This document shows positions 8,578 to 28,492 of a stretch of DNA of 64,000 nucleotides, piece after piece. How positions within the stretch are numbered: the first letter of the stretch is position 1; the number at the start of each line of letters is the position of its first letter. Location: the NCBI GenBank assembly GCA_007753915.1, contig CP036352.1, positions 868,001 to 932,000 of the forward strand. The letters are read 5' to 3'. Source of the DNA: Phycisphaerae bacterium RAS2 (GTDB taxonomy: Bacteria > Planctomycetota > Phycisphaerae > UBA1845 > UTPLA1). The notes below the pieces were generated by a model, which did not search any database, was not told the origin of the DNA, and saw only the letters and a list, made by a program, of their open reading frames with translations. The position numbers were made by a program, and so were the translations under genes.

Positions 8578-8609
8578 CTTGCAATCAACGTAGCGCAAGC
8601 TGTGATTCA

Positions 8610-10375: not shown

Positions 10376-10378
10376 GGC

Positions 10379-11568
10379 TTATCGTCCTTGTGTATCTTTT
10401 CCGGGATCAGTTGTCAGGCCCCAGAAAAAGCTAAGTGGTGTTCGTAAACGAGGCAGGCTAATACCACAGTCCTTGACGGTATCATGGAGAGCAGAGTTGG
10501 AATTGGGGCCAATCAATAAATATTGTGCCGGGTACTCTCTGGTATGTAGTTCCCATAGACACTTGCACTTGTCGCAATCGACCGTCTGATTCGCCTCAAA
10601 GAGAGGAGAAGTCCAATCAGGGTATGCCACGATATTGCCCGCTGCAATTGGAAAATGCTTGGGGCCAAATTGAACATTGAATGACTTTCTGGGTACATTG
10701 GAGCATTGCGATGAATCTACGGCCAATCCGAGATGCGTGGCAAGAACTACAAGGCTACTTCTGTACTCTAATTTGCAGCACTTTAGCCCCAAAGGATCAT
10801 AGATGTTTAGTGGATTGTTATGATTGCTTGCACATAGGTTCAAACCGCCTTCTTCCCCAATCGGATCCCAGCTCAACCACCTTCCCAGCCGCGGCGAGTA
10901 ATATCGATATCCGTAGTAATAAAGCCCGTTGGCGTCGGCGGGGGAGCCGGCGGCGGTGTAGTCGATCTCGCCGTCGAAATACTTCGTGCTGAATCGGAAG
11001 GGATTGGAGGTCGTCTGCGGGCCGGCGGCCGTGTGCGCCCCGAACGGGTCGGTGTAGTCATAGGCCGCGTCGAGCGTGGCGGCCTGGCCTAGGCCGTGCG
11101 TGACTTGCAATACTTGGGTCACATTGCCGGAGCCGTCGTAGAAGTAGAGGTAGTTGCCGTCGTCGGTGGTGGCCGATGTGCCGCGCGTGTCGTACATCGC
11201 GAGCAAGCCGCCGATTCCGCCCACTCCCTGCGGCGTGCCGGACACATCCAGCCCCCAGGTGTACTTGCGCAGCACGGCATTGTCGTCCAAGCCGTCGAGT
11301 TCCATCACGAGGTTCCAGCCGTCATAGACAAATCGCGTGTCGGACACGGGGAAGCCCCAGTTCGTGCCATTGTACTCCCAGACCTGTTTCTGCACGCGGC
11401 GACCGATGTAGTCGTAGCTAAAGCGCAGCCGCTTGCTGCCGACGACGGGGCTCCGCGGCTGGACGATCTTCAGCCGATTCTCGGCGTCCCACTGGTAATC
11501 ATTGGCGGCGTCCTGGGAGAGGTTGCCGTCAAAATCATGAGCGAAGGCCTCGGTCGGGTCGGCTGTAC
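10379..11568 (-). pseudogene. RHS protein, 5'-truncated by IS remnant (tip 1)
   Basis: The frame is open from the IS remnant boundary at 11568; codons before the GTG at 11395 are clearly RHS (AFAHDFDGNLSQDAANDYQW, RLRFSYDYIGRRVQKQ), so 11395 is not a true start. YD repeats and the core follow: TRFVYDGWNLVMELDG, YTWGLDVSGTPQGVGG, YDYTDPFGAH, NPFRFSTKYFDGEIDY and YYYGYRYYSPRLGRWLSWDP, ending at DPLGLK. The ~130-aa tip starts CCKLEYRSS and contains ATHLGLAV and YLLIGPNSNSALHDTVKDCG, which faintly recalls papain-like folds with His first and an Asn-rich motif later. At least the N-terminal half of a normal RHS protein is missing. Confidence 0.8.
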
Positions 11569-11658
11569 TGACCTTCCCCCACGGTTTAGTCCACCTGTTA
11601 TGTTAGTCCAACACCGTTCACAGCACACGCCGTGGGCGGGCGGATCGCTGTGAGCGCC
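11569..11658 (-). mobile_element. Remnant of the IS right end (inverted)
   Basis: TGACCTTCCCCCACGGTTTA at 11569 begins about 90 bp that match the reverse complement of the IS right end at 8061-8150 with only a few differences, including the OrfB C-terminal codons (CERCWTNITGG in another frame). Homology fades near 11658. It faces the full IS copy, so the RHS-tip region 8151-11568 is bracketed by two inverted right ends of one IS. Confidence 0.88.
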
Positions 11659-11711
11659 CAAGAATAATGGGGCCGAATCGAATTCTCAGTGATTTGGCGA
11701 TTGGCACTGGT

Positions 11712-14700
11712 TTATCCTGGGGGACTCTTTTCTGCCTTGACGCTGACTTCGAGCTTGCCCGCCTCGCCCGCCTTGATTGTGCAAGCGGGGCCGAACAGCT
11801 TGAGAATCGTATCCTGGGGCAGCTCCTTCGGAACGGTGATGATGTCGATGGTGGTGCTTCCGTCTTTGGTGATCTCGCGCTTCAACTCGATCTTGTTGTT
11901 GACTTCGTTGGGCTTAGCTTTGACCAGGAGCGGTGCACTCGCAATCGGTTCACCGTTGGATTTGGAGCCGACAATTTGAAGGAGAACGGCGCCGGCGGCG
12001 ATCGGCTCGACCTCCTGATAGATCAAGTCGTTTTCGACCTTGTGTTCTCCACTGATCTTGAGGATTGACTCGTCGCTACTCGTCACCTTGAAAGGCGTCG
12101 GGATGTTCGGAAGGTTGGATACGATGAGTGTCACCTTCGCCTTCTTGTCGACCGTGAACTCCGACGGAATGACGTGCAGAATTTTGGGTGCTCGATTGTT
12201 GATGAACATCTCGATGGGCAGTGCCTGTGAGTTAGTGGAGCCGATCATGTTGAACTTGAGCAGTTCGATGCGATCTCGCGCGAACGCGGCGAGGGCGTCC
12301 GACCGAGCGCAGTCATTGGCATCCCTGTTGGAAGAAATCTGATCGCGTAGAAAGCGGACGATCGCATGGAGCGATTCGGGGGGCTGCGCCTTGTCCTTCT
12401 CGTTAATTACAGAGTGGACGTATTCATTAAGTGAGAAAAGGTCCGCAATGAGATCTTCATTGACGGACCGGCCTTCCAGCCCCTCGCGATCAAGCAGGGT
12501 CTGAAGGAGGTCGCGCGTGAAAGTCAGTTTGACTGGATTCCGTGCTTCACTTGATTCTGGTCTTTCGCCAGTCACGGATAAGATCAGCTGAAGCGCCTGG
12601 TTGAGTTGATTAAAGGCAATGACTCGCTCTGTGCGTGTTGTCTTGGTGAGTTGACGGGCCTCTTCTAGCTGGACCGCCCACATCAAGCGAGTGGACTCTT
12701 TGATTGACGTGCGATGCGGGTTGTCGCCCTGTGGAGACTTGGTCAAAGGCACCCAGCGGGTGGTCTGTCGGAATTCAAGTTGCGGTTCCATGATTTCGAG
12801 TTTGCCGGCGCGATAATCCAGCTTGAGGTCCAGGTCGTCCTTGTCCAGCCCGATCGCGATGAGTACGGGAAACGTCTGTCGTTGGAGCATCATTCCAGGG
12901 CCGGGGTAGCGCTGGCCGAGGAACAAGTTGCCAAGGCCCGTGAAGATGGAGTCGCCCCGCCCGCCTGGCGCGACGCTGGTCAGTGCGCGGAGGTCCGGCC
13001 CGATCTGGTAGCCGAACATGCCGCCGGAATTGCTGTAAGACGCAACGTTGTTCAGCGCGGTTCGGGTGGTCACATCCTGTTCAAGCCGGTCAACATGCTG
13101 CATGAGACCAGCGGCCTCTGCCTGGGCGCCAAAGCCTGACATGACCAAGGCAAGCCGGATTGCGAAAGCCTGTTGCTGTCGTATGCTGCTGGACAAATCC
13201 AGACTCTGGACTTCGGTCATGGGTGATACGGCTGCCACGAGGGGATTGCGAGCCTGGTCCGGCAGAAGTTCGCCGCGGGAAGAAACCTGACCGAATATGC
13301 TTCCGCCGATTGAATCCGAGCCACCGGCAGCGCCGCTGAGCGACCTCAACAATCGCGCGTCGATCTTGATCATATCTTGCGCAGCTTCCTTGTCGGGGAC
13401 GAACTCGATGATCTTTCTTGCGGTTTCATTGATGTGGCGAAGCGTCATTCGCAGCTCCGCAGACGCTTTGTCTCGAGCTTCCGTCAGCGTCTTGAGCTTC
13501 GATTCGCTCGTTTCCAAGTCCTTGTTCCGTTTGGCGAGCAAGTCCTGTTGCTCTCTTAGCTGCCTGCGCCGATCCATGGTGACGGGTTGGGCCGATTCGA
13601 TTTGCGCATTGAGTTCGGAAAGCTTCTGCTCGACGGCCTTGATCTGCCCGGCGTCATCCCCCCGGCGCAGATCAGCCAATTCCGCCAGGAGAACTTCCTT
13701 ATCCAGGAGCAGCTGATCATGCACATCGATAGGCTTCTGCAGGCCATCGAGGGATTTTTGCGCTGCATTGCGTTGTTTCTCCAACTTCTCATTGTTTGCC
13801 GTCTCAACCTTCAACTCTTGCTCTTTGGAGCTAAGAACTCCGGTGAGACGTTTTTCGTCATCTGTGAAATCAACTAGTCTATTAGTTAGTTTTTCGAGTT
13901 CCCCGCCCGTCAAGGCATCCACGAGTTTGCTGCCTTCGTCCGTGACCGCTCGCGACTTGGAAAGGATTTCCAGTTTTGCAATGCGAGCCCGTTGCAACGG
14001 ATCCGACGACTCCTCCATCGCCCGGATCAATTCAATTCGCGCGGGTTTGTAGTTGTACTTCGTGAAAACGGCAACGTCCGCAGCAAAGCCGGTCGTGGTG
14101 TACTCACCGGGGTTCACCGAAACCATGGACACGCCGAACAGCACCATCTTGTCTTGAAACTTGTCGGCCAGATCGGGGCGGCCCAGGAACCTGAACATCG
14201 CCTCCACGGCCTTGTCGCCGGCGGCGGTGATGATCGCCGAACGATTCTTCTGAACCAGCGAGGGCGGCGTGCCAAAGAGCTTCATGAACTCCGCGAATTG
14301 TTGACGAAGCATCGTCTTGCGGATTTCCTCCGTTGTGGGAAGGGTGTCCGGACTCAAGTCAGGCGGGGAGTTTTTGAATTCGGGAACTGAAGGCCGACTG
14401 GTCGGGCCTGCGAGGCCGGCACCGAGCGTGTTGAGGATTTCGGCCGGCTGGGACGTGGTCACTTCGCCCGGCTTGGGCAACACCGAAGCGAGAACGGCTG
14501 CGTCGAGCAGTCGATTCTTCATTTGGAAGGCATTCAAGTCGTCGTGATAGGCAGAGAGATTAAGCGAATTGGTCAACATGTCCTGAAGGTTGAACTTGCC
14601 CTGCGCGCCGAAGGTCACGTCCGTCGCCTGTTGAAAGAACGCGCCGGCAGCCCCCTGAATCTCATTCTTCGCCTGATTGAAGTACGTTTGCGGTTCCATG

Positions 14701-14936
14701 TTCAATTCGAATGAAAACGTCTTCGTGCTCGGGCTGGAGAGCAGCGGACTGGAGACCGAAATGGTTCCATAGCGATCCATGTCCTTGCCGACCGGATCGA
14801 GACGGCGGCCGACTCGGTCAAGCCATCGTGTGTCTTCGGGCGTGAAACACGGATCCTTGCAGCCGCTAATCAGGATCGTGCAACATAAGATGAACGAAAG
14901 GACGCGGGCGCGGGGGTGGCAATGCGTTGCGATCAT
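11712..14936 (-). CDS. Large coiled-coil lipoprotein of unknown function
   Basis: A 1074-aa protein. The start is the ATG at 14936, preceded by GGAGGGACCCACC and giving a clean lipoprotein signal (ARVLSFILCCTILISG-C); the 29 codons upstream are not needed. The N-terminal third is predicted alpha-helical. A central coiled coil rich in Glu, Lys, Gln and Leu (about residues 350-510: SSKEQELKVETANNEKLEKQ, QQDLLAKRNKDLETSESKLK) is followed by a Gly-rich helical region. The C-terminus has a beta domain (APKILHVIPSEFTVDKKAKV…PNIPTPFKVTSSDES) that reads like an Ig-like or IPT domain. I do not recognise the family. It starts 46 bp after the stop of the secreted protease gene on the same strand, so the two probably form an operon. 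Confidence 0.75.
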   Translation of the reverse strand: MIATHCHPRARVLSFILCCTILISGCKDPCFTPEDTRWLDRVGRRLDPVGKDMDRYGTISVSSPLLSSPSTKTFSFELNMEPQTYFNQAKNEIQGAAGAFFQQATDVTFGAQGKFNLQDMLTNSLNLSAYHDDLNAFQMKNRLLDAAVLASVLPKPGEVTTSQPAEILNTLGAGLAGPTSRPSVPEFKNSPPDLSPDTLPTTEEIRKTMLRQQFAEFMKLFGTPPSLVQKNRSAIITAAGDKAVEAMFRFLGRPDLADKFQDKMVLFGVSMVSVNPGEYTTTGFAADVAVFTKYNYKPARIELIRAMEESSDPLQRARIAKLEILSKSRAVTDEGSKLVDALTGGELEKLTNRLVDFTDDEKRLTGVLSSKEQELKVETANNEKLEKQRNAAQKSLDGLQKPIDVHDQLLLDKEVLLAELADLRRGDDAGQIKAVEQKLSELNAQIESAQPVTMDRRRQLREQQDLLAKRNKDLETSESKLKTLTEARDKASAELRMTLRHINETARKIIEFVPDKEAAQDMIKIDARLLRSLSGAAGGSDSIGGSIFGQVSSRGELLPDQARNPLVAAVSPMTEVQSLDLSSSIRQQQAFAIRLALVMSGFGAQAEAAGLMQHVDRLEQDVTTRTALNNVASYSNSGGMFGYQIGPDLRALTSVAPGGRGDSIFTGLGNLFLGQRYPGPGMMLQRQTFPVLIAIGLDKDDLDLKLDYRAGKLEIMEPQLEFRQTTRWVPLTKSPQGDNPHRTSIKESTRLMWAVQLEEARQLTKTTRTERVIAFNQLNQALQLILSVTGERPESSEARNPVKLTFTRDLLQTLLDREGLEGRSVNEDLIADLFSLNEYVHSVINEKDKAQPPESLHAIVRFLRDQISSNRDANDCARSDALAAFARDRIELLKFNMIGSTNSQALPIEMFINNRAPKILHVIPSEFTVDKKAKVTLIVSNLPNIPTPFKVTSSDESILKISGEHKVENDLIYQEVEPIAAGAVLLQIVGSKSNGEPIASAPLLVKAKPNEVNNKIELKREITKDGSTTIDIITVPKELPQDTILKLFGPACTIKAGEAGKLEVSVKAEKSPPG

Positions 14937-14982
14937 GGTGGGTCCCTCCTGGGCCGAAATAAATTGAACCAGTTCCGCCTTG

Positions 14983-16194
14983 TCAGAATTGAGCGCCGGG
15001 TACGCTGCGAATGAATGATTCAAACTTGTCGAGACGAACGTAAATGCCGCCGTCTCCGCAGGGGCGAATGCTTGACTTGGTCGCTCTCGATGTCACCGCC
15101 GCCACGGCCCATGACGCGTCATCGGCCGCGTTTTCGCCGACCAGGACGTAGGCCGGTCCGCCGCTGTCGCCTCGACAACTGTCTGCACCCAGACCAACGA
15201 AGCCGGCCACCAGTTCCAGTTCTTTGTCGCAGCCAAGCTTGGCCGGATCACCTTCGCGGCAGCAGCAGACCGAGGCCATCGGCACGTCGACCATGCGCTT
15301 CAATCCGAAGCCGATGCTGCCTTCATAGTTGGTGTTTCCGAAGCCTGCCGCACGGATAAAGCTTGACCGGTCCACTTCCGAACTGGTCGCTATCCGCCGT
15401 GGCGCGATGTCCGTCACGAGTTGGTCGAGAACGATGACAGCGATGTCGTTATGAAGTCCGTTCTCTCCATATTGCTGGTGCCGATAGGCCTTGCCGGTCA
15501 CTCGGCGGCCCACCAGCGAGGTGTCCAGCCCGAAGTGGACGACAGCCGTATTGGAATCCGCGCCAAGACAGAAGTAGCAGTGCCCGGCCGTCACGACGAC
15601 GTTCTTTCCGACCAGTACCCCCGTGCAGCAAAACTGGTCGTTTCCCGCCAACCGCCGGCCGATGCAGACGCAATCCTGAAACAACGACTCCGGTACCGCC
15701 TGCGTACCCGGGCCGACGATGCGAGCGAGATAATTCGGCCCGGTGATTGGAAAGAGTCCGGAATTGGGCTTGGCGGCCTGCTCCATCAGGATGCGGTAAT
15801 TCTTATGAAGGCTGGGCCACTCCCAGACATCTTCCGACGCCGGCCCGGAAGCGGCTGGAGCAACGTTGCGTAGCTCCGATGCCTGGACTTCTTCCAGCAA
15901 TCCGCGTTTCGAGGCAACCGCCGTTGAAAGCGCCGTGACCGAGAGCGATGTAAACTGGCGGTCATCGGGACCGGCAACCTGGGATGCATAGTCTTGCGCC
16001 GCGGTCACAAGAGCATGGTATTCCTGTGGCGTGAACGACTTCAACAGTCCCTTGGCGCCGCGCGCCGCTTCTGTTTCCAGGCTTCGCAGTTCGGATTTGG
16101 CCTTAACAACCTGGCCGCCGACGCCGGTGTCACCGGCATGCGCGAACCCGGGGAGGATCAGCACCGCACAGACAAGTGTACGAAACGGAGCCAT
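14983..16194 (-). CDS. Secreted trypsin-like serine protease (S1 family)
   Basis: A 403-aa protein with a Sec signal peptide (residues 1-20, cleaved after FAHA). A ~150-aa helical pro-region precedes the S1 peptidase domain, which has the full triad: H205 in VVTAGHC, D250 in NDIAVIVL and S344 in DSCRGDSGGPA. Extra cysteines (CVCIG, FCCTG, CYFC, VCCCREGD, LGCD) suggest several disulfides outside the cytoplasm. The start is the ATG at 16194, with GAAAGGAAAA upstream; the ORF extends 15 codons further without a better start. It heads a probable operon with the large lipoprotein and is divergent from the ECF sigma gene, 198 bp away. The substrate is unknown. Confidence 0.93.
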   Translation of the reverse strand: MAPFRTLVCAVLILPGFAHAGDTGVGGQVVKAKSELRSLETEAARGAKGLLKSFTPQEYHALVTAAQDYASQVAGPDDRQFTSLSVTALSTAVASKRGLLEEVQASELRNVAPAASGPASEDVWEWPSLHKNYRILMEQAAKPNSGLFPITGPNYLARIVGPGTQAVPESLFQDCVCIGRRLAGNDQFCCTGVLVGKNVVVTAGHCYFCLGADSNTAVVHFGLDTSLVGRRVTGKAYRHQQYGENGLHNDIAVIVLDQLVTDIAPRRIATSSEVDRSSFIRAAGFGNTNYEGSIGFGLKRMVDVPMASVCCCREGDPAKLGCDKELELVAGFVGLGADSCRGDSGGPAYVLVGENAADDASWAVAAVTSRATKSSIRPCGDGGIYVRLDKFESFIRSVPGAQF

Positions 16195-16392
16195 GTGGAT
16201 TTTCCTTTCATGAAAAGATGGTGGCTGCCATGACCACAATTGGCATGGCAGCTCACCACCTGCAGCCCGAAGAGGCTAGGATCCCTTCAAGAGAGCAGGG
16301 TCGATTAAAGAGCCGCAGGATGCGATGCGTGTTGCGCGAGATTCAGTCGAAATTATTGGATTGTTTTCAGCGGCAAGTTAAGCTAGGCAAAC

Positions 16393-16971
16393 ATGGAGCC
16401 TCACGATCCATCGCTTGCCGGCACCATCACGCTCCTGCTTCGCCGAGTTCGTGAAGGAGAACCGGCGGCCATGGATGATCTCTTCCGGGAGGTTTATGAA
16501 GATCTCCGAAGACTCGCCCGCCAGGTCATCGCATCGAATCAAAGCGGAGCGAGGGCCTTGGGCGGCACGGAACTGGTGCACAGCGCATGCACCCGATTAC
16601 TGGGAAATCAACTGCTGAATGCCGAGGATCGACGCCACTTCTTCTTCATTTTCGGCCGGGCCATGCATGACGTGCTTGTAGAGACCGTCCGCCAGGAAAT
16701 GGCGTTGAAGCGCGGCGGCGGTCAAAAGCGTGTGCCCATGGTAGAGTTCTCCACCGACGGCACATCCATCAACCTCGATGTCATTGAGTTGAACAAAGCC
16801 CTGCTCGAATTGGAGGCTCATGATCCCGATGGTGCCCAGATCATCCGACTTCGGTTCTTCAGCGGACGAACTCTGCAGGAATGCGCCGGTCTGATGGGCT
16901 GCACGTTTGCGATCGCCCGCCGCAATTGGGAATACGCCCGGGCCTGGCTGTCGGAGCGACTTTCACGGTAA
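16393..16971 (+). CDS. ECF-type RNA polymerase sigma factor (Sigma70_ECF)
   Basis: A 192-aa sigma factor of the planctomycete/acidobacterial ECF-like group (Sigma70_ECF, TIGR02999). Region 2 covers about residues 8-95 (LFREVYEDLRRLARQVIASN, ELVHSACTRLLG, DRRHFFFIFGRAMHDVLVET), the linker contains RGGGQKRVP, and region 4 is IIRLRFFSGRTLQECAGLMG…ARRNWEYARAWLSERL. It directs RNA polymerase to a special promoter set. It is the first gene of a run with the kinase-FGE gene, 76 bp downstream. In related loci such sigma factors are tied to Ser/Thr kinases that may phosphorylate them or associated regulators. No anti-sigma gene is seen. Confidence 0.93.
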   Translation: MEPHDPSLAGTITLLLRRVREGEPAAMDDLFREVYEDLRRLARQVIASNQSGARALGGTELVHSACTRLLGNQLLNAEDRRHFFFIFGRAMHDVLVETVRQEMALKRGGGQKRVPMVEFSTDGTSINLDVIELNKALLELEAHDPDGAQIIRLRFFSGRTLQECAGLMGCTFAIARRNWEYARAWLSERLSR

Positions 16972-17047
16972 GAGAAATTTTTTTCTTGGATCAACGGCAA
17001 CCGCGCGCGCCGTTTGCGGCTTTGGATTGGTTGTCGACCCCTTGTCC

Positions 17048-19255
17048 GTGGAGAGAAACTTGGCTCAGAACTGGGACGAAAAGGCGGTCTTCCTTGCCGC
17101 CTTGGGCCTCGCAGCCAAGGACCGCGACGCGTTCCTACTCGGAGCGTGCCCGGATGAACCGGCACGCCAGCGGATCCGGCTGCTGCTGGATCACCACGAG
17201 AAAAATGCGACGACAGGCTTCAATCCTGAGGCGGACAGTGCCCCGATCGGCCTTGCGGACCCCAATCAGATTGACGAGTTTCGGCTGATCCACAAAATCG
17301 GTGAAGGCGGTATGGGCGTTGTCTACTTGGCGGAAGACACCATCCTCGCTCGGCGCGTCGCCTTGAAGATCATCGGTTCGCATCTGCTTGGCTCGGAGCA
17401 GGGTGTCGCACGGTTTCGGGACGAGGCCCGGGCGGCCGCACTTCTGAACCACCCCGCCATCGTCCCGGTTTTCAAGTATGGATCGGATGGAACCCGCCAC
17501 TACATCGCGTCCGAGTTTGTCGACGGACCTACCTTGAGCACCGTTCTGGAGGAAGAGCGAAGCCGGCGCCAGGGCATGACCCGCACGGACGCCTTGAGTT
17601 GGTTCAAACGCTGTGTCGAGATTGCGGCAACGATCGCCGACGCGCTGGATGCTTCGCACCGGATGAACATCATCCATCGCGATGTGAAACCGTCCAACAT
17701 CCTGGTGGACAGGCATCGCGGGCCGCGGCTGACGGATTTCGGAGTCGCCAAGAATCTGACAGTCTCGCCCGAACGACCTGTGACCAACATCGTCGGCAGT
17801 TGCCATTACATGAGCCCCGAGCAGGCCTCCATCTCCGCTGCAAGCGTCGATCAGCGAAGCGACATCTTCTCGCTCGGAGTCGTACTCTACGAGATGCTCA
17901 CGCTGCAAAAGCCCTTTGTCGGGGCCGATCTGAGCCAGGTGCTTCGCGCCGTCATCGAACACAATCCACCCACAGTCAGGTCACTCGACCCGCGCATTCC
18001 GCGCGACCTTCAGGTCATCTGTCACAAGGCGATCGAGAAGCACCCGCGCGATCGCTACCAGTCGATTGCGCACCTGGCGGCGGACCTGCGATGTTTCATG
18101 GCGGGCGACCCGATCCTTGCCAGGCCGCCAGACCTGACGCAGCGAATTCTTCGCTGGCTAAAGCGGCATAAGAAAGCCGTGGTTCTCATTTGCATCGCGG
18201 TGCTGGCGTTTGCGACTCTGTGGATGAGGCATCGGTTAAAACTCCAGCATGACCTTGCGATGGCCTGGGTATCCATCTCCGCCGGTTCCGCGCCTTGCAA
18301 GGCATACTTCCAGCCACACAGTTTGACCACACTTGAACCCTTGTCGGATTACACCGCCATTGGTCCTACTCCAGTACAGAATTTGAAACTCAAGGCGGGT
18401 CAATATCGCATTCTCGTCGTCCGCGACTCCGATCGGGCGTTTTGCGAGTTCAATCTGGTGGCGCTTGAGGCCGGGCCGGACCATCTCGCGTTCATTCGTG
18501 CGTTTGATTCGGCGAACGAAATCAAGTCTCCCGCGGAACGAAACGAGCTGCGGGGTGCATTCCGCCACACTCGTGACATCGCCCAAGGCGAAATGATCCG
18601 AATTGAAGGGGGCGACTTTGAACTGCGAACGAGCAATTCTCAACACCCTGTTCTGTTGGGTGCAGTCCGGTTGGATTCTTTTCTCATTGATGTCACTGAA
18701 GTGTCAAACCGAGACTACCGCGCGTTCGTGGATGCGACCGGCCACCCGCCGCCTTATTCCTGGACGGCGTTTGGTTACTCGCCCGAATTGGAAGATCGCC
18801 CGGTGGTGTGGGTTTCGCTCGCCGATGCCGAAGCATATGCCCGATGGCGGGGTAAGCGACTCCCGACGCTATGGGAATGGCAGGCAGCGGCGAGGGGGCC
18901 GAAAGGCGATCTCTATCCGACCGGCGCGCAGCTCCCAGACGTGCCTGCCCAAACACTGAATCAGAATCTGTTCGGCGATCAACTGGCGATTTTTCAGAGC
19001 TACGCAGAACACACGATGTCAACGGGCGTGCCCAGCGCATGGGACGGAGTATCCGGACGATTGCGGCACACGTTCTCAAACGTTTGCGAATTCACCGGAA
19101 CGGTTGACCTCGCGAATCGAGACGTCTATTTGACCGGACGGGGATGGTATGAGGACCCCAGAACACGAACGCTGGCGAACGTACTAACGACGCCACTCAA
19201 GCAACCGACGCCGAGGTTCGGCTTTCGGTGTGCCAAGAGTATACTGAAGAATTAA
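17048..19255 (+). CDS. Ser/Thr protein kinase fused to FGE-sulfatase domain
   Basis: 735 aa counted from the GTG at 17048; the frame is open from 16907, so the start is uncertain. A Hanks-type kinase domain (about residues 80-355) has the glycine loop IGEGGMGVVYLAED, Lys107 (VALKII), the catalytic loop IIHRDVKPSN with Asp212, DFG Asp230 (LTDFGVAKN) and SPEQAS. One membrane segment (about 376-393, VVLICIAVLAFATLW) separates it from an outer region ending in an FGE-sulfatase/C-type-lectin-like fold from about residue 512 (GEMIRIEGGDFEL, VTEVSNRDYRAFVDAT, RLPTLWEWQAAARGP, FSNVCEFTG, PRFGFRCAKS). A periplasmic FGE-like sensor driving a cytoplasmic kinase fits this topology. It lies between a sigma factor and two unknown or copper-protein genes. 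Confidence 0.9.
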   Translation: MERNLAQNWDEKAVFLAALGLAAKDRDAFLLGACPDEPARQRIRLLLDHHEKNATTGFNPEADSAPIGLADPNQIDEFRLIHKIGEGGMGVVYLAEDTILARRVALKIIGSHLLGSEQGVARFRDEARAAALLNHPAIVPVFKYGSDGTRHYIASEFVDGPTLSTVLEEERSRRQGMTRTDALSWFKRCVEIAATIADALDASHRMNIIHRDVKPSNILVDRHRGPRLTDFGVAKNLTVSPERPVTNIVGSCHYMSPEQASISAASVDQRSDIFSLGVVLYEMLTLQKPFVGADLSQVLRAVIEHNPPTVRSLDPRIPRDLQVICHKAIEKHPRDRYQSIAHLAADLRCFMAGDPILARPPDLTQRILRWLKRHKKAVVLICIAVLAFATLWMRHRLKLQHDLAMAWVSISAGSAPCKAYFQPHSLTTLEPLSDYTAIGPTPVQNLKLKAGQYRILVVRDSDRAFCEFNLVALEAGPDHLAFIRAFDSANEIKSPAERNELRGAFRHTRDIAQGEMIRIEGGDFELRTSNSQHPVLLGAVRLDSFLIDVTEVSNRDYRAFVDATGHPPPYSWTAFGYSPELEDRPVVWVSLADAEAYARWRGKRLPTLWEWQAAARGPKGDLYPTGAQLPDVPAQTLNQNLFGDQLAIFQSYAEHTMSTGVPSAWDGVSGRLRHTFSNVCEFTGTVDLANRDVYLTGRGWYEDPRTRTLANVLTTPLKQPTPRFGFRCAKSILKN

Positions 19256-19267
19256 AGGAGGCTGAAC

Positions 19268-19693
19268 ATGAGTTTCAAAGTGAATTCGCTCCGATTGATC
19301 GGACAAACGTACGGTGGATACGACCCCGATTCCGACGCGCCGATCCACACCCTGGCAGACGTGCTCCCTCTGGTCGATCGAAATGCCATTGTGACAGCAC
19401 TGGCGGTCATTCGCCAAGATTGGACATTTGGCGGAACGAACGGGACGGTCGCGTTCGAAAACCTGATGAATGAAATTCATACTGCGCTCACTGGGATCAA
19501 TTCCCTTTACCATCTGTATTATCAGGCACCCTTCTACATGGCCATTCTTGACAAGTACGGCAACGTCGTCGGCCACGATACCATCGCACAAATAAAATAC
19601 GACAACCAGGTCGTAGAGTATCAGCACGTCAGCGGCGGCGCGACGCGCTATTGCGCTCAATCGCACATCTTCGCCTCCATTGGTGTGTCATGA
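19268..19693 (+). CDS. Conserved-looking hypothetical, upstream of copper-type protein
   Basis: A 141-aa protein with a strong ribosome-binding site (AAGGAGG, 7 nt before the ATG). It has no signal peptide or membrane segment. Aromatic-rich stretches (INSLYHLYYQAPFYMAILDK, YGNVVGHDTI) and six His residues are visible; no family is recognised. Its stop overlaps the start of the next gene as ATGA, so the two are translationally coupled and probably made in similar amounts. In Streptomyces mel operons a small helper (MelC1) precedes the tyrosinase and delivers copper. The gene order and size match that, but I see no sequence resemblance to MelC1, so the analogy is inference only. Confidence 0.7.
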   Translation: MSFKVNSLRLIGQTYGGYDPDSDAPIHTLADVLPLVDRNAIVTALAVIRQDWTFGGTNGTVAFENLMNEIHTALTGINSLYHLYYQAPFYMAILDKYGNVVGHDTIAQIKYDNQVVEYQHVSGGATRYCAQSHIFASIGVS

Positions 19694-20577
19694 ATACGCT
19701 TCATCCGGCGGTCGTGGCCGAAATGGCTGATCGAAAGATGCGCTTGGCGCATCTGGGTTGGCATGGAATTCGGGAGACCTGGCGAAAACTAAGCGAGGTC
19801 CAGAAGACGGAGCTGCGCCGGCTGTTTCGTCATTTCGGCTGGGACGACCCGCGCCCGTCAATGGATGAGCAGGGAAACCTGATTCGCGGCCAGGGCGCTG
19901 GATTGGACTTCCTGTACATGCACCGGCACATGATCGAAATGGTCAATGGAATCCTCACGTCTCATGGCGCCGTTCCATTGGAAGGGTGGAAGGAGCCTCC
20001 CCGCGTGCGCGATCCGAACTACCCGGTGCCGACGGGTCTCGGATACACACAGGCCGAGTTCCCGACGAAGAACGACGAGCATTGGGCGTGCTGTCTTTGT
20101 GATGCACGTCGATTTGACGACCAAAGTTATTTGCGCGGCATTACTCTTGACCTGCTCGGGACCGAAATCGAGTATGGAATTCACGCGGCAATGCACACGC
20201 GATTTGGAGCCTTCTGCGAGATTGGCTATCGGCCTTCTTCCGCCGGCGGAGTAATCATCGTCGATCCCAAATGGGACGACCCCGCCTACGACTCCCTCTT
20301 CGACCCGTACTCCTCGCATGTTCACCCGTGGTTCTGGAAGATTCACGGCTGGGTCGATTCTCGCATTACTGCTTGGGAACAGGCAAACGGCAAACATGCG
20401 ATTTGGCAGAATGTCTGGATGGGCCCGATGCACCATGTACATGCCCATGGCGCCGCTCATGGGGCGCATCTTCTCGACGCATTGGAGGGTCAGGCGGGCA
20501 TTCTACTCGCTACGGACCCATTAAGTGGTGTCTTCATGCCTCGCGTCTTTCCATATTCCCGGGTTTTGGTTGAATAA
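19690..20577 (+). CDS. Putative type-3 copper (tyrosinase-like) protein
   Basis: A 295-aa protein; the ATG at 19690 overlaps the previous stop. A CuB-like site is clear: H165-AAM-H169 (YGIHAAMHTRFG) followed by H212-PWFWKIH219-GWVD…W (VHPWFWKIHGWVDSRITAWE), close to the family pattern DPxFWxHHxxVDRxxxxW. A CuA-like helix is present as FLYMHRHMIEMV (H78, H80), preceded by WRKLSEVQKTELRRLF, as in tyrosinase N-termini. The usual third CuA histidine nine residues before the MHR motif is absent, so activity is uncertain. A His-rich tail (MHHVHAHGAAHGAH, 247-260) is unusual. There is no signal peptide. Such proteins oxidise phenols or carry dioxygen. It is the last gene of the sigma-kinase cluster. 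Confidence 0.6.
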   Translation: MNTLHPAVVAEMADRKMRLAHLGWHGIRETWRKLSEVQKTELRRLFRHFGWDDPRPSMDEQGNLIRGQGAGLDFLYMHRHMIEMVNGILTSHGAVPLEGWKEPPRVRDPNYPVPTGLGYTQAEFPTKNDEHWACCLCDARRFDDQSYLRGITLDLLGTEIEYGIHAAMHTRFGAFCEIGYRPSSAGGVIIVDPKWDDPAYDSLFDPYSSHVHPWFWKIHGWVDSRITAWEQANGKHAIWQNVWMGPMHHVHAHGAAHGAHLLDALEGQAGILLATDPLSGVFMPRVFPYSRVLVE

Positions 20578-20932
20578 GTCTGGAATGTAAATTGGCGACT
20601 TCTCGACTCTGTTCAGGAATGCCCTGGCTGCCCGCATGGTGGCTGGCCTCAACTCGTGTGGCGCCAAGTGTCACCCAATTCATCACCTGATTTAGATTGA
20701 TCCTCTGCGTCCATACCAAGCCGAAAGCTCGCGGGTGTTCTTGACCAGCCGTGGCAGACCTTCACTTAGACCCGCGCGATTCCGCCAACTCCGTGCCCCC
20801 CTTCATCCAATTTGCCCATTCTGCCTTGGTTGATCGGACTCGCTCGGTCGCCGGAGAGCAATTCATCCTTGCGGCCGGTGCGCGAATCGCCGCATTCTGG
20901 CATCGAGCCGCCCGCGCTTGTATTCTCCTTGA
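20578..20932 (+). other. 355-bp intergenic region, no feature recognised
   Basis: Lies between the copper-type gene and truA. I see no convincing ORF, RNA gene, terminator hairpin or repeat. It should hold the truA promoter. Confidence 0.6.
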
Positions 20933-21856
20933 ATGCTTCGCAATCTCATGCTCACGCTAGCCTACGACGGCGCCGACTTTCACGGCTGGCAGAACCAGCC
21001 CGGCCTGCGCACCGTCCAGTCCTGCGTCGAGACGGCCCTGCGACGGGCGCTGCGCCACCAGGTGGTCGTCATCGGATGCAGCCGCACCGATGCCGGCGTG
21101 CACGCGGCGGCTTACGTCGCCAATGCCTACACGACCGCGAAGACGGCCGATCTGCCGATCGCACGAAGCATCGGTTCGCGCCTGCCGAAGGACATGACCC
21201 TGCTGAATCTGGAGACCGTCCCGCTGACGTTTCATGCGACGCGGTCGGCGCTGGGGAAGCTCTATCGGTATCGCGTTCATGCCGCACCGGGCCGGCCGTG
21301 TGAACAATTGACCCAGCGGTTTACGTATCATTTCTGGCAGGCGCTCGACGTGCAGGCGATGCGCGCCGCGGCGGAGCATCTGATCGGGCGACACGATTTC
21401 ACGTCGTTCGCGTCGGCGGGAAATGTGCGGGAGTCCAACGTGCGGACGATCCGGCGGATCGACGTGTACCGCGTCGGATTGGAAGTGCGATTCGACATCG
21501 AGGGCGATGGGTTCCTGTACAAGCAGGTGCGCAACATGGTCGGCACGCTGATCGAGGTCGGTCGCGCGCATCGGCCGCCGGAATGGGTGGCGCAGGTGCG
21601 CGACGCGTTGGATCGCGCGAAGGCCGGCCCGACCGCTCCGGCGCGGGGCTTGTGCCTGCAATGGGTGCGATACAATCTGCGAGACCTTCCGGAGCCGACG
21701 CCGGAAGTCTTGGACAAGGCGCGGGAGGTGGGCGCGCCGCCGGCGCACCTGCGTGCATTGGTGGAGCGGCAGCATCGTTCGTTGAATGAGAAGCAGCGAC
21801 AGGCGCTCGCGCCGAAGCCGGAGGGCGTCGAGATTGTTGAGGATCCCGAGGCGTGA
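20933..21856 (+). CDS. truA: tRNA pseudouridine(38-40) synthase
   Basis: Converts uridines 38-40 of the tRNA anticodon arm to pseudouridine. The 307-aa protein has the family hallmarks: AYDGADFHGWQNQP near the N-terminus, the catalytic aspartate D53 in CSRTDAGVHA, LGKLYRYRVH, HDFTSFAS, GDGFLYKQVRNMVGTLIEVG and a C-terminal GLCLQWVRY. It begins at the ATG at 20933 and runs about 35 residues past the usual end with a charged tail. No operon partner is obvious; the next gene starts 192 bp downstream. Confidence 0.97.
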   Translation: MLRNLMLTLAYDGADFHGWQNQPGLRTVQSCVETALRRALRHQVVVIGCSRTDAGVHAAAYVANAYTTAKTADLPIARSIGSRLPKDMTLLNLETVPLTFHATRSALGKLYRYRVHAAPGRPCEQLTQRFTYHFWQALDVQAMRAAAEHLIGRHDFTSFASAGNVRESNVRTIRRIDVYRVGLEVRFDIEGDGFLYKQVRNMVGTLIEVGRAHRPPEWVAQVRDALDRAKAGPTAPARGLCLQWVRYNLRDLPEPTPEVLDKAREVGAPPAHLRALVERQHRSLNEKQRQALAPKPEGVEIVEDPEA

Positions 21857-21940
21857 GCGAGACGGCGTGAGTCTTCTGCGAACTGAATCGTGTCCACGCG
21901 GCGTTCAACCGAGCCGCGCACGTCAAGTCCGCGTGCTTCA

Positions 21941-21963
21941 GAGCCGCGACCACAAGGGAGCGG
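21941..21963 (+). repeat. Dispersed GAGCCGCGACC-type repeat, single copy
   Basis: GAGCCGCGACCACAAGGGAG followed by CGG is related to the two inverted copies at 40955-40979 and 41042-41066. It lies between truA and the glycosyltransferase gene. Confidence 0.6.
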
Positions 21964-22048
21964 GTTCTTGTTCGTCGTTTCGCGGCGCATTCGTGCCCGC
22001 ACCAATCCGTCCGCACCGCGCTCGTGCTTCCTGGTCCGTTTCGGAGTC

Positions 22049-23224
22049 GTGGACTTGCGCATCGTTCACATCATTACGCGGCTGATTGTCGGCGGGGCGC
22101 AGGAGAACACCGTCCTCACCTGCGAGGGGCTGGCGCATCGCGGCCACGATGTCTATTTATGGGCCGGGCCGACCACGGGACCGGAAGGGTCACTGGTGCC
22201 GCGCGTCCGGGCTGCGAGTCGATTACCCGGCGGAGCGTACGCCTACGAGGAGTTCCCCGATCTGGTGCGACAGATCAGCCCGCTGCATGAATTGCGCGCG
22301 TTGAATGCACTTCGAGGCCGACTGGAGCAGCTTCGGCCCGATGTGGTTCACACCCATTCGAGCAAAGCGGGGATCCTGGGACGCATCGCGGCCCATCGCG
22401 CCGGCGTGCCGGTCATCGTGCACACCATTCACGGCATGAGCTTCAATCGCACGCAGGCATGGCCCACGCGAGCACTGTATGCCGCGCTGGAGCGATTTTG
22501 CGCAGAAAAGAGTCACGCGTTGGTCAGCGTCGCCGATGCGATGACGCGACAGGCCCTCGCGGCCGGAGTGGGGCGGCCCGAGCAGTACGTCACGGTGCGC
22601 AGCGGCATGGTGACGGCGGATTTTGACCCCGCGCGGTTTGACGGCCGTGAGGTTCGTCGCGCGTGGGGCGTGCCGGACGATGCGATCGTCGTCGGCACGG
22701 TTGCGAGATTGTTTGAGAACAAGGGCTATGAACAATTGATCGAGGCGATGCCCGCGGCCGTGCGAGGCGAACCGCGATTGCGATTCGTGTGGGTCGGAGA
22801 TGGCGCGCACCGCGCGGAATACGAAGCAGCGCTGGCGCGGCTTGGTCTGCGCGATCGAGTGACGATCACCGGCCTGCTGCCGCCGGACGAAATGCCGCGC
22901 GTGCTGTCGGGCATGGATCTGGTCGCACATGCATCGCAGTGGGAGGGGTTGCCGCGCGCGGTGGTGCAGGGGCTGCTGATGGGCAAGCCGGCTGTGTGTT
23001 TTGATCTGGACGGCGCGCCGGAAGTGGTGATTCCCGGCAAGACGGGTGAACTCGCGGCGCCGGGAGACATCGACGAATTTTCAGTTGCGATCGTCAAGCT
23101 TGCGCGCGATGCAGCGCTGCGGGGGCGCTACGGAGCGGAAGGCCGGCGGCGGTGCCTCGTGGAGTTTGATCACCACCGAATGGTGGAAGCGCTGGAGGGG
23201 CTTTATCGGAGTTTGCGGAAATGA
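22049..23224 (+). CDS. Glycosyltransferase family 4 (GT-B)
   Basis: A 391-aa retaining glycosyltransferase of the cytoplasm or inner membrane face that transfers sugars in polysaccharide or lipid-linked glycan synthesis. The N-terminal domain begins IVHIITRLIVGGAQENTVL and contains DVVHTHSSKAGILGRIAA; the C-terminal nucleotide-sugar domain has VVGTVARLFENKGYEQLIEA, FVWVGDG and the donor-binding SQWEGLPRAVVQGLLMGKP…GAPEVV with the EX7E-type acidic pattern modified. The start chosen is the GTG at 22049, because the family begins at this point; the frame is open 53 codons upstream, with no homology there. The acceptor is unknown. Confidence 0.92.
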   Translation: MDLRIVHIITRLIVGGAQENTVLTCEGLAHRGHDVYLWAGPTTGPEGSLVPRVRAASRLPGGAYAYEEFPDLVRQISPLHELRALNALRGRLEQLRPDVVHTHSSKAGILGRIAAHRAGVPVIVHTIHGMSFNRTQAWPTRALYAALERFCAEKSHALVSVADAMTRQALAAGVGRPEQYVTVRSGMVTADFDPARFDGREVRRAWGVPDDAIVVGTVARLFENKGYEQLIEAMPAAVRGEPRLRFVWVGDGAHRAEYEAALARLGLRDRVTITGLLPPDEMPRVLSGMDLVAHASQWEGLPRAVVQGLLMGKPAVCFDLDGAPEVVIPGKTGELAAPGDIDEFSVAIVKLARDAALRGRYGAEGRRRCLVEFDHHRMVEALEGLYRSLRK

Positions 23225-23257
23225 GGCGACGTTGAAAGCGGACTGAATATGTGGAAT

Positions 23258-23338
23258 GTGGAATTAAGAATGCAGAAGTGGAAGGGCTGCGGATAGCGGC
23301 GTGTTTCTACATTCCTAATTCTTCATTCTCAATTCCAC
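23258..23338 (+). repeat. A/T-rich inverted repeat (dispersed hairpin family)
   Basis: GTGGAATTAAGAATGCAGAA at 23258-23277 pairs with TTCTTCATTCTCAATTCCAC at 23319-23338, leaving a 41-bp loop. It lies between two convergent genes (glycosyltransferase and permease). The arm sequence resembles the hairpin at 60855-60911 (GAATTGAGAAT core). Confidence 0.75.
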
Positions 23339-23343
23339 CACGC

Positions 23344-25185
23344 TCACGCGTGTATCAGCAGCTTCGTCTCTTTCGGCAGGTTTGCCGCCACATCGGCGAT
23401 GATGTCGCCGCGCAGGGTGCGAAAGACCGAGCCGCGCCGGGTCACGCCCATGATGACGTAATCGACGGCGTAGGTCCCCGCGAAGTCGAGGATCATTTCC
23501 GAGGGCGATCGCGCGACGCAATAAATCGGCACCAGGGGAACACGCTTCTCGCGCGCGAGCTGATGCGCCTGCAGGAAGATCGGCACCGCGTCGGGGTCGT
23601 CCTCCATGCGGAATTGACCATCGGCCGGCGGACCATAGGCCACTCGCAGATCGCGCACGAACAATACCAGCATGTTGCAGTTTCGCGCCTCGGCTTCTTC
23701 CGCTGCGAACGTAAGCAGGTCCGGGTTCCCGCGCGTGGAGACCAGCACACGCCCACGCGTCGGGTCGAACGGTTCAATGCCCTCCATCGTGAGCGCGTTG
23801 GCCCCTTCCACCGGCGGCGCTTCGAACCAGCTTCCGACCGCGTCAGCGACTTTCGGAATGTACGGCTTCACGGCCGGCGCCTTCTTCACCAGGGCCCGCA
23901 GGATGTAACCGCCGGCGATAACGGACAGCGCGAAGATCGACGCGTGAACTTTCTGATAGGCGATGGTGCATTCCACAATGAGCAGAAACGCGGCAATCGT
24001 GCCCAGGGCGACACGCTCCCATTGCTTCAACTCGACCTTACGGTTGATGCAGGTCGATCCGAGATTCAGCGTGATGGCGCCGACGACGCCGATGGCGTAG
24101 AGGTGCGCCAGCTTCTCCACGTCGCCCTCGAAGATCAAGACAATCGTACATACGCCAACAGCCGTCACCAGCCCCAGCCACGGCACACCGAATGCATTGA
24201 GGCGCGTAAACCCCGCCGGCATTTCGCCGTCGCGCCCCAGCGCGTATTGCAGGCTGATCATCGCGCCGACCGCGGTGTTCGTCGCCGACAGCAACAGCAG
24301 CCCGAAGACGACCGCCGCGATCATGCCGAATGTCGGATGGACCACTTCCGATGCGACGACTTTCATCATCGTGTCGCGCACCGCCAGATCGTGCGCCGTC
24401 AGATCGTGCTCAGGCCGGTCGGCAAGGATCGGCGTCGGCTCGCTCTCCAGGGTCGTCAGGCTGGGCAGGTTCGTCATGGCGACGGCGAAAAACAGGTTGA
24501 AGAAAACCACTTCAGCGAGGACGAAGGAGATCGCCTTGCGCGAGGTCTTGCCGACCGGTTCCACCATGATGCCGGTCATGTTGGCAATGGCCTCGACGCC
24601 CGACAGCGCCAGGATGATGTGTACGAAGCTGGTCCACTTTACGTCGAGCGGGCGATGGTCCCAGGTGATATGCGACAGTCCCAGTCGCGGGATGCAGAAC
24701 AGGGCGATGATTATCATACAGACAAATGTAAGTAATGCGACGATGGTCGCGAGCTTGCTCGCGCGGCGCGGCCCGACGAAGTTCACGCAGGCGATGACAA
24801 AGATCGCCCCGATCGCGAACATCCACGCCGTCTCGGCCGACGCTCCGAAGTAGCGGAACGCCTCCACCGCCGACAGGCCGGCCGTGATGACGTAATCGGC
24901 GAAGAGCAGATAGGCCCCAAGGAGGGCCACCTGCTGATGCGTCGCCTTGGCTGCCGAGTACACCCCGCCGCCGTCGTGAAAGCACCGGCAGATCACCGTG
25001 TAGGCCCAGCCCACGATGATCATGAGCAGGCACATCCCGGCAACGTGCCACGGGCTGGAAGCGCCGGAATAGAAGAACGCCAGCCCCAGCACGTAGAGGC
25101 GGCTGGTCCCCCAGTCTCCGAATAGCAAACTCCCGGCGTGTCGCCAGGTCAGTTCACGCGGTCGTTGTTGATGGACCTGCAACAC
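23344..25185 (-). CDS. APC-family amino-acid permease with C-terminal USP domain
   Basis: A 613-aa membrane transporter. About twelve hydrophobic segments cover residues 15-450 with APC-superfamily features (FGDWGTSRLYVLGLAFFYSG, GGGVYSAAKATHQQ, LSGVEAIANMTGIMVEP, NTAVGAMISLQYALGRDGEM). The last ~140 residues form a universal-stress-protein-like domain (RGRVLVSTRGNPDLLTFAAE, MLVLFVRDLRV, DYVIMGVTRRGSVFRTLRGD, IIADVAANLPKETKLLI), which probably faces the cytoplasm and may bind a nucleotide to gate transport. Fusions of this kind are known in a minority of permeases. It starts at the ATG at 25185. The gene is convergent with the glycosyltransferase. The substrate is unknown. Confidence 0.9.
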   Translation of the reverse strand: MLQVHQQRPRELTWRHAGSLLFGDWGTSRLYVLGLAFFYSGASSPWHVAGMCLLMIIVGWAYTVICRCFHDGGGVYSAAKATHQQVALLGAYLLFADYVITAGLSAVEAFRYFGASAETAWMFAIGAIFVIACVNFVGPRRASKLATIVALLTFVCMIIIALFCIPRLGLSHITWDHRPLDVKWTSFVHIILALSGVEAIANMTGIMVEPVGKTSRKAISFVLAEVVFFNLFFAVAMTNLPSLTTLESEPTPILADRPEHDLTAHDLAVRDTMMKVVASEVVHPTFGMIAAVVFGLLLLSATNTAVGAMISLQYALGRDGEMPAGFTRLNAFGVPWLGLVTAVGVCTIVLIFEGDVEKLAHLYAIGVVGAITLNLGSTCINRKVELKQWERVALGTIAAFLLIVECTIAYQKVHASIFALSVIAGGYILRALVKKAPAVKPYIPKVADAVGSWFEAPPVEGANALTMEGIEPFDPTRGRVLVSTRGNPDLLTFAAEEAEARNCNMLVLFVRDLRVAYGPPADGQFRMEDDPDAVPIFLQAHQLAREKRVPLVPIYCVARSPSEMILDFAGTYAVDYVIMGVTRRGSVFRTLRGDIIADVAANLPKETKLLIHA

Positions 25186-25395
25186 GAAAGGTGGGTGATA
25201 CCCTTAGTTCTGTAGCGCCCGCCGGAAACGTCAGTTCCCAGTGTCGTTGCGGTGATGCGAATGCTACCCGATGCGACGGCGCGGTCCACAGCGCCTGTGA
25301 ATTCCTTTAGAAAAGGCGGCCTGCTCGGGGGTGGAATGGCGGTTCGGATGCGGCTAACCTGCCCGGCCATGAACCGGTCGCCACTAAATAAGACC

Positions 25396-26244
25396 ATGGA
25401 CCGCAATGATTTAGATAGCGCCGCCTGCCGTGAGGTACTGGTCGAGCTTTTCGGTTTGATGCGGCGGATGAAGCGGCACGGCGTCGCTTATTCGTCGTGG
25501 TACGGCCATCTCGATGCATGGCCCAGTGCCTGGGAACACATCAATCGGGGCGAGGCCTACGAGATGTGGCCGGGCAATCCGGACGAGCTGGCGGTTCCGT
25601 GGTTTCTGCTCTGGGAGATCGCGTGGTTGACGGCCAACACACCGATGCGGCATGGGGCGCGGGTGCTGGATATGGGTGGCGCTGGTTCGCTGTTCACATG
25701 CTACCTGGCAAGCCGCGGTTGCGAAGTTCATACCATCGACCTGCAGCAGGATCTTTGCGACCGGACGGCGAGCATCGCGAAAGCCATGAATTGGCGATTG
25801 ATTCCTCGCCGCATGGACATGACGCACCTGGAGTACTCCGATGGCCACTTCGACCACGTGTTCAGCGTTTGCGTGTTTGAACACCTACCCGTTTCGGGGC
25901 GCGTGGAGTGCAACACTCAGGTGAAGCGCGTGTTGAAGCCCGGGGGCACGGCCGCGTACACCTTTGACTTCGCCAACCCGCAGTCGTTCGGGCGAATCGA
26001 CACACCCGAGGACGTGCGGCGACAGTTTATTGAACCATCGGGCCTGGCCCCGCGCGGCAACGCAACGTTTCACGACAACGGCAAGCGATACCTCGCGTCG
26101 CCGCAGTGTTTCGGTTTCGGCAGAATCCTTCGAACCGGGGCGGCCCTTCATTCGTTAGCAACAGGGTCGATGGATCGACGTCGGGTGCTGTCCGGGAGCA
26201 CGTCCTATACGATGGGATCGGTGTTCCTAGAAAAAGGGGGATGA
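25396..26244 (+). CDS. Class I SAM-dependent methyltransferase
   Basis: A 282-aa protein from the ATG at 25396; in-frame starts at 25369 and 25252 also exist and none has a good ribosome-binding site. The Rossmann core is clear: motif I VLDMGGAGSLFTCYLASRG, the acidic end of beta-2 VHTIDLQQDL, motif II-like RRMDMTHLEY, FDHVFSVCVFEHL and the motif III-like VKRVLKPGGTAAYTFDF. It transfers methyl from S-adenosylmethionine to an unknown acceptor. The N-terminal 80 residues, rich in Trp and Tyr (YSSWYGHLDAWPSAWEHINR), may define the substrate. No operon partner is evident. Confidence 0.85.
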   Translation: MDRNDLDSAACREVLVELFGLMRRMKRHGVAYSSWYGHLDAWPSAWEHINRGEAYEMWPGNPDELAVPWFLLWEIAWLTANTPMRHGARVLDMGGAGSLFTCYLASRGCEVHTIDLQQDLCDRTASIAKAMNWRLIPRRMDMTHLEYSDGHFDHVFSVCVFEHLPVSGRVECNTQVKRVLKPGGTAAYTFDFANPQSFGRIDTPEDVRRQFIEPSGLAPRGNATFHDNGKRYLASPQCFGFGRILRTGAALHSLATGSMDRRRVLSGSTSYTMGSVFLEKGG

Positions 26245-26419
26245 ATATCGGCAGAACTCGCGGTCCGGTATTAGCGCCGCCGGGCAGTGCTGAAAATCAC
26301 GAATTTTCCGGAAACCGGCCATTTTTCGTTTGCCAGCAGCCGATAGAGACCATATAGATATCGTTGACGTTAGCGGTCGTACAGGTTCGAAGTGGGTGGG
26401 AGACCAGGGCGAGCGTTCG

Positions 26420-26872: not shown

Positions 26873-26902
26873 CCGCGCACGGGTTCCGAGCGAGTTCTCT
26901 CC

Positions 26903-26929
26903 AACCGGCTCTTCAAGGGCCGGTTTTTT
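26903..26929 (+). terminator. Rho-independent terminator
   Basis: Stem AACCGGC (26903-26909) with GCCGGTT (26919-26925), running into six T residues. It ends the transcript of the small membrane protein gene. Confidence 0.88.
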
Positions 26930-27139
26930 GTTGCGCACCGGATGTTCGCACCTTGCAAAGGTCATTCGTTTCCGCCGGGTTGATACGGTCCGGTTCTGTA
27001 GCGCAGCCCGGACTCTGTAACATGACCCGACTCCGAAACACGGCGTCACTTTGAAACGTATCGCGTCCACCGACGGGAATCACGGTTGTAATTCACCCCG
27101 ACCACGTCGATTACGCTAAACCGAATATACTGTTCGGCC

Positions 27140-28390: not shown

Positions 28391-28492
28391 TAACGTCCTG
28401 CGAGTTTGGGTTGAAAGTTACTACTTATGCGACCGGTCCGTCCTGCCGACGATGGGGGGGCTTAGGAGTCTTTCCACAGGGAGGAATCGGAC

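Follow-up and report, generated by a model that had tools for sequence, protein, structure and literature searches.

Within a stretch of 64,000 nucleotides from the genome of Phycisphaerae bacterium RAS2 (contig CP036352.1, positions 868,001 to 932,000 of the forward strand; hereafter the window), four genes on the plus strand at 16393-20577 encode an extracytoplasmic function (ECF) sigma factor, a Ser/Thr kinase joined through a transmembrane segment to a domain of the formylglycine-generating enzyme (FGE) type, a protein of 141 aa and a tyrosinase resembling PvdP. The same four genes were found in the same order in five other loci, three in metagenome-assembled genomes (MAGs) of Phycisphaerales type and two in genomes of the window's class, and because these diverged loci keep the order, the linkage is not a matter of chance and an explanation as accidental neighbours was rejected. 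We read the cassette as a signalling operon of the phosphorylation-activated group ECF43, in which the small protein works as a pair with the product of the gene that follows it (here called the third gene) and in which that third gene is exchangeable; the probability of this reading is put at roughly 0.6.

A recurring four-gene cassette

The sigma factor gene (16393-16971, 192 aa) is followed after 88 bp by the kinase gene (17060-19255, 731 aa), after a further 12 bp by the gene for the 141-aa protein (19268-19693) and then, at a distance of -4 bp, by the tyrosinase gene (19690-20577, 295 aa). The kinase reading frame is open from 16907 to 19255, and the probable start was set at TTG 17060 on the strength of homologues and of a GGAG six bases upstream. 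An AGGAGG lies directly 3' of the kinase stop, inside the 12-bp gap ahead of the small gene, whose own stop overlaps the start of the tyrosinase gene as ATGA. Spacing of this kind is operon-like, and the four genes would be expected to share a single transcript. An earlier note on this DNA had described four same-strand genes with short gaps, the last two coupled by ATGA, all of which is borne out by the coordinates of the open reading frames (ORFs); it had also called the last product tyrosinase-like, a label that can be refined to PvdP-like. A search of genome contexts for the four genes together, set beforehand, found them linked in the five other loci.

In the three Phycisphaerales-type MAGs (L014, L015, L018) the sigma factor, full-length kinase-FGE, small and tyrosinase genes stand in the same order as in the window, with identities to the window proteins of 26-45% for the sigma factor, 37-46% for the kinase (the range of the full-length kinase homologues), 37-41% for the tyrosinase and 21-24% for the small protein. 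Profile searching across the window's class (397 genomes) found the tyrosinase in three, namely the window's own, G548 and G557, and all three carry the cassette; in G548 and G557 the sigma factors are 43 and 49%, the kinases 43 and 46% and the tyrosinases 26 and 25% identical to those of the window, and a small ORF again follows the kinase. Single-sequence searches of 294 genomes of the phylum had located neither the tyrosinase nor the small gene in any genome but the window's own. These, together with a first contig scan that gave no match, were superseded by the profile search and by a scan with an alignment that included plasmid-borne relatives, which returned 480 tyrosinase relatives in contigs. 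Absences should be considered with caution, since the best 80 of the 480 were kept and the profile searches scored part of the first-look candidates in each genome.

The tyrosinase matches NF051454 (E 1.3e-26, with 93.2 bits against an NCBIfam equivalog cut-off of 625 bits, which is not reached) and the PvdP structures of the PDB (6eys/6rrp, E 5.5e-22). Seven histidines, H21, H25, H78, H165, H169 and H219 together with H210, are common to the window, the five other loci and PvdP; six of these we take, from known tyrosinases, to be copper ligands, and all six residues of this type are retained even at 25-26% identity. A tree of 63 rows, for which 24 of 86 candidate loci (near-copies and one partial sequence, mostly from Pseudomonas) were omitted, places the first four cassette tyrosinases in one clade (SH-aLRT 98). 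When L172 and L173 were added and two further long rows omitted, a single origin of the six tyrosinases was neither shown nor rejected (approximately unbiased (AU) test, p 0.364). Elsewhere among the relatives, a PvdP-like protein of Mesorhizobium onobrychidis with an N-terminal domain (L011, 4506-8067) adjoins a gene annotated as a quinone oxidase of the LodA/GoxA type.

The sensor half

The sigma factor matches PF07638 (E 7e-39) and, above its cut-off, TIGR02999, which we take to cover ECF43. Members of this group have another sequence in place of the DAED/DxxD motif in region 2.2, and a Thr within it is phosphorylated by the adjacent kinase; the motif reads STTA in EcfP, QATE in EcfK and QTTA in the ECF43 consensus (PMC13147305, PMC8999054). 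The corresponding residues are GGTE in the window (GGTE-LV, with T59 as the candidate phospho-Thr), QTTA in L014, QATA in L015 and RGTE in L018. Twenty-three sigma factors were taken from the wider set of kinase-FGE loci described below, 22 of which reach the site (that of L125 is cut off), and Thr occupies it in 21. With a sigma factor of the PF07638/TIGR02999 type, an adjacent gene for a Hanks-type kinase and Thr at the σ2.2 site, the window protein carries, as judged from its residues and gene context, the ECF43 signature. EcfP–PknT of V. parahaemolyticus and EcfK–PknS of X. citri are likewise encoded by a sigma factor gene adjoining a Ser/Thr kinase gene, with Thr at region 2.2, and as here an anti-sigma gene is not usual; in contrast to both, the window cassette adds an FGE sensor domain, a co-encoded small protein and an exchangeable third gene. 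Other sites also matter in EcfK, whose T51A variant remains functional (PMC13147305), and T59 may therefore not be the sole phosphosite in the window sigma factor. By eye, TCAGT(CG) or a near variant is seen upstream of the sigma factor gene in the window, L014, L018 and L173; it was not prominent in a search for promoter words.

The kinase has a Pkinase domain (E 2.9e-43), a single hydrophobic segment at residues 373-391 and then the FGE-type, C-lectin-like domain (FGE-sulfatase, E 2.1e-24, covering 4-150 of 255 in the Pfam model), a topology which fits an FGE sensor on the outer side of the membrane. True formylglycine-generating enzymes have a catalytic Cys pair near the C-terminus. Here the FGE part has Cys at 676 and 724 only, and as the canonical pair is missing this part is probably a non-catalytic binding domain. 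Kinases with an FGE-type domain are common in Planctomycetota, in which it ranks third in abundance among the domains of these proteins, and those described are like the window protein in having a single transmembrane segment with the domain outside; in the available part of that paper a small–tyrosinase pair is not mentioned (PMC11032199). The sensor half of the cassette, the sigma factor together with the kinase-FGE, is a known kind. In L014 a second kinase (27% identical to the window kinase over 233 aa) and an ORF that is sigma-like by eye adjoin the cassette on the minus strand (8687-11274).

The small protein and the exchangeable third gene

Kinase profile searches were carried out in 248 genomes of the class and 114 of the order, and the best-scoring full-length kinases were followed, at the level of the order in the best 13 of 101 other matching genomes. 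Twenty-two loci, the window included, have enough downstream DNA to be assessed; L123 and L169 end too early. A sigma factor gene stands beside the kinase in 21 of the 22 (partial, at a contig edge, in L134), and a small ORF of ~130-197 aa lies 3' of the kinase likewise in 21, of which 20 start within ~130 bp and one, in L168, at 327 bp; L134 has no small ORF after its kinase. Counted over the 16 assessable loci beyond the six with a tyrosinase, each of these two genes occurs in 15. The third gene is the variable part: it encodes the tyrosinase in 6 of the 22 loci and a different protein in 11, and there is none close by in five (L134, L138, L139, L168, L170). Five of the eleven have an unknown protein, of 276-354 aa in L132, L135, L165 and L167 and in a fused form in L133, where an ORF of 564 aa comprises an N-terminal stretch in the place of the small gene, with the hairpin motif described below, plus the domain of the third protein; the stretch has no significant sequence match to the small proteins. 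Four have another unknown protein of ~380-406 aa (clear in L136 and L137, weak in L131 with E 9e-5, by eye in L171), and two (L164 and L166) an unknown protein of ~490 aa, apparently secreted on visual inspection. Among the third proteins of these other cassettes, those compared with Pfam and NCBIfam (a set without L132, L164 and L165) matched no family. The tyrosinase is one among several outputs of kinase-FGE cassettes.

Mapped on the kinase tree, the types of output are clustered, with 6 changes against a mean of 8.7 on shuffling and a value as low in 3 of 200 shuffles (16 labelled rows, L135 then being unlabelled). The six tyrosinase cassettes do not form one group on the best tree, and one group is not rejected either (AU p 0.324). 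Judging from these trees, sensors have mostly kept their outputs, with some swapping.

For the 141-aa protein no family was found in Pfam (none at E <= 1), NCBIfam or PADLOC, nor any hydrophobic segment; there was no convincing PDB sequence match, in a search that could miss a divergent caddie protein of the MelC1 type. The best AlphaFold model, of an alpha/beta protein, has a mean confidence (pLDDT) of 83.8 and a pTM of 0.80, and the four others reach 53.9-70.5. Started from the L018 small protein, with the same four proteins, all five models fell at 77.5-79.6 (best pTM 0.76) and showed the same order of elements as the window model, a strand, helices and five strands. Each of the five other loci has a counterpart of the protein at the corresponding position, and as small ORFs are found also where there is no tyrosinase, the small protein is not merely a tyrosinase helper.

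A hairpin motif, consisting of an aromatic residue, a loop and [GQR]H[DE] (Y90...GHD in the window), occurs in 13 of 21 small proteins as against 52 of 2905 background ORFs, figures to be read in the knowledge that the motif was picked post hoc from sequences already inspected and that members of a group are related to each other. Tyr is the aromatic residue throughout the six tyrosinase cassettes, five having the strict motif and L173 a looser one. The residue is Trp in six of the eight other loci with the strict motif (L131, L132, L133, L135, L165, L167) and Tyr in the remaining two, L164 and L166, both of which are cassettes of the third type. A hidden Markov model (HMM) of the six small proteins from tyrosinase cassettes matches the small ORF of L131 (E 3.5e-5), a match that drops to E 1.5 once a further group joins the model. 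In tests that left groups out in turn, L172 (E 0.0016) and L164 (E 0.014) scored better than the unrelated background ORFs when held out. A model of four sequences places an ORF of L106 above L172; this ORF is among the weak small-gene profile matches in nine other genomes (E 0.014-0.086), which were taken as chance. These profiles give only partial support to homology of the small ORFs between cassette types.

Mechanism, alternatives and genomic setting

A mechanism consistent with the above would begin with the FGE-type domain binding a ligand outside the membrane, upon which the cytosolic kinase would phosphorylate the sigma factor on T59, by analogy with EcfP/PknT and EcfK/PknS. The phosphate would supply a negative charge in region 2.2, allowing binding to RNA polymerase and transcription of the targets, which probably include the sigma factor's own operon. 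The small protein, as the usual partner of this kinase type, would act with the third protein of its cassette, whatever that is; here this would be a PvdP-like dicopper tyrosinase, probably cytosolic in view of the lack of a signal-like or transmembrane segment and expected to oxidise a phenol, and the small protein could serve it as a copper or placeholder partner like the caddie of Streptomyces or be its protein substrate. The earlier note had proposed a surface sensor signalling through the kinase to the sigma factor and so controlling an oxidase. That remains the best reading, with linkage, gaps, topology and the Thr in its favour, although the promoter search gave nothing convincing; what the note had overlooked is that a small ORF after the kinase is nearly constant and that the tyrosinase is only one of several third genes.

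A number of results weigh against this picture. L170 has no sigma factor match beside its kinase, the L130 sigma factor has Ala at the phosphosite (with Thr at the adjoining residue), and the window sigma factor retains an acidic residue beside T59, as does EcfK. Upstream of the 22 sigma factor genes, shared words of 6-8 nucleotides were no commoner than in shuffled sequence, and the best promoter-like pair, which is G+C-rich, occurred in 6 of the 22 as against 3-5 in 20 shuffles. For the 141-aa protein, Foldseek/VIA gave no match among solved or viral folds (best Z 4.3); MelC1 and PvdP were not among the fold matches listed, by which neither is excluded. Small proteins from another cassette type showed no significant homology in a profile comparison, and most groups were not recovered by HMMs from which they had been left out. 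Lastly, the planctomycete PvdP relatives L048 and L054 have flanks with no sigma factor or kinase match, and the tyrosinase family is therefore not tied to the cassette.

The small protein could instead be an anti-sigma factor or adaptor for the kinase and sigma factor, the third gene being merely co-regulated and its product making no contact with the small protein. In its favour, L138, L139, L168 and L170 have a small ORF after the kinase but no third gene close by; we regard this reading as unlikely. By their ORF coordinates the small and third genes overlap or lie near each other and in L133 they are apparently fused, and a hydrophobic stretch resembling a signal peptide can be seen by eye at the N-terminus of the L166 small ORF, a feature ill-suited to a sigma factor binder.

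If the small protein is instead a partner of the third protein, the Streptomyces caddie–tyrosinase operon offers the closest parallel for the tyrosinase version: there too a small gene lies directly ahead of the tyrosinase gene, and the small protein has a conserved Tyr that could sit in the active site. Tyr98 of the caddie occupies the tyrosinase pocket (PMC6312201), and the hairpin Tyr of the cassette proteins may be said to echo it. The cassette differs in that no MelC1 sequence or fold match was seen, the tyrosinase is of the PvdP type and small ORFs occur also without tyrosinase. A more speculative and rather improbable version makes the small protein a common substrate or cofactor carrier: the third enzyme would oxidise its hairpin aromatic residue, placing a protein-bound quinone under the joint control of kinase, sigma factor and enzyme; if true, the kind of third enzyme would be coupled to the kind of residue modified, Tyr or Trp.

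The setting of the cassette bears on another improbable explanation, namely a defence or conflict operon whose sensor would respond to an attacker and whose variable third gene would supply the weapon, the tyrosinase making toxic quinones. The cassette is the right end of a stretch (2074-20930) which is absent at the matching place in G295, a genome of the same genus (TruA 97% identical): blastn aligned window 1848-2073 and the sequence from 20931 on with G295 regions, and nothing in between. The stretch includes a tyrosine recombinase of the phage integrase family (4670-6037, minus strand; PF00589, E 1.9e-9) and a transposase of insertion sequence type. The small gene and the tyrosinase were not found elsewhere in G295 or in the 14 other genomes of the same family searched; gain in the window's genome is the simpler reading, with loss elsewhere as the alternative. 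A species-specific stretch with an integrase, a patchy distribution and alternative last genes would all suit a defence operon, and the ECF43 pair EcfK/PknS responds to amoeba predation (PMC13147305). Against this, PADLOC matched the kinase domain alone, with no match for the other three window proteins or for four third proteins of other cassettes.

Several neighbours may be recorded here. Window 20931-35652 is inverted relative to G295, with the extra stretch at one end. Within the latter lie a stand-alone FGE-type protein gene (3564-4583, plus strand; PF03781, E 5e-46) and, at 8610-11395 on the minus strand, two neighbouring genes without a Pfam family, joined by DNA repeats of 101 and 134 bp, whose products have RHS-like ends by eye (FDGEIDY...GLYYYGYRYYSPRLGRWLS) and different tails. 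Beside the cassette on the opposite strand is a gene for a protein of 1103 aa (11712-15023), a homologue of which (37% over 131 aa, E 1e-12) lies downstream of a different kinase-FGE cassette (L164, G580). It is overlapped by a trypsin-like protease gene (14983-16239, minus strand), which diverges from the sigma factor gene by 153 bp and has no homologue in the other cassette loci examined.

Two further explanations fare worse. In the first, the cassette would mature a siderophore or peptide as in pyoverdine synthesis, a PvdP-like tyrosinase acting on a small peptide and the FGE domain recalling PvdO. PvdO is FGE-like and PvdP is the nearest characterised enzyme, sharing with the window protein the tyrosinase core, the six copper-ligand-type His and the SSHV–FW–HGW block. 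However, the window tyrosinase begins at the core in the alignment, without the N-terminal PvdP domain or a signal-like segment (PvdP is described as acting in the periplasm), and scores well short of the NCBIfam cut-off; the FGE domain is carried on a kinase; and a search for the condensation domain of non-ribosomal peptide synthetases (PF00668), which left other pyoverdine genes aside, gave 0 matches in the genome with a control positive in 4 of 14. Pyoverdine-type synthesis was accordingly rejected, and maturation of this kind is very unlikely. The second, raised by the earlier note, makes the FGE part the variable target of a diversity-generating retroelement, as FGE domains fused to kinases are known to be, and can safely be dismissed, since a search for RVT_1 reverse transcriptases gave 0 matches in a single-contig, 97% complete genome (control positive in 3 of 14), leaving the missing ~3% as the sole place for one.

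To our knowledge the targets of phosphorylation-activated ECF sigma groups are mostly unknown. A table in PMC8999054 lists groups of this kind put forward for several planctomycetes. In open-access full text no description of the small–effector half was found; ECF43 with formylglycine, and planctomycete tyrosinase with sigma and kinase, gave no match, and the sole match for FGE-sulfatase combinations was on caspase homologues. With one type of kinase and sigma factor packaged together with a small partner and an exchangeable last gene, the likely output is encoded beside the sensor, and as one version of the cassette ends in a recognisable enzyme, a dicopper tyrosinase, the pathway is testable. 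A PvdP-like tyrosinase beside a sensory kinase also places this enzyme in a setting outside siderophore synthesis.
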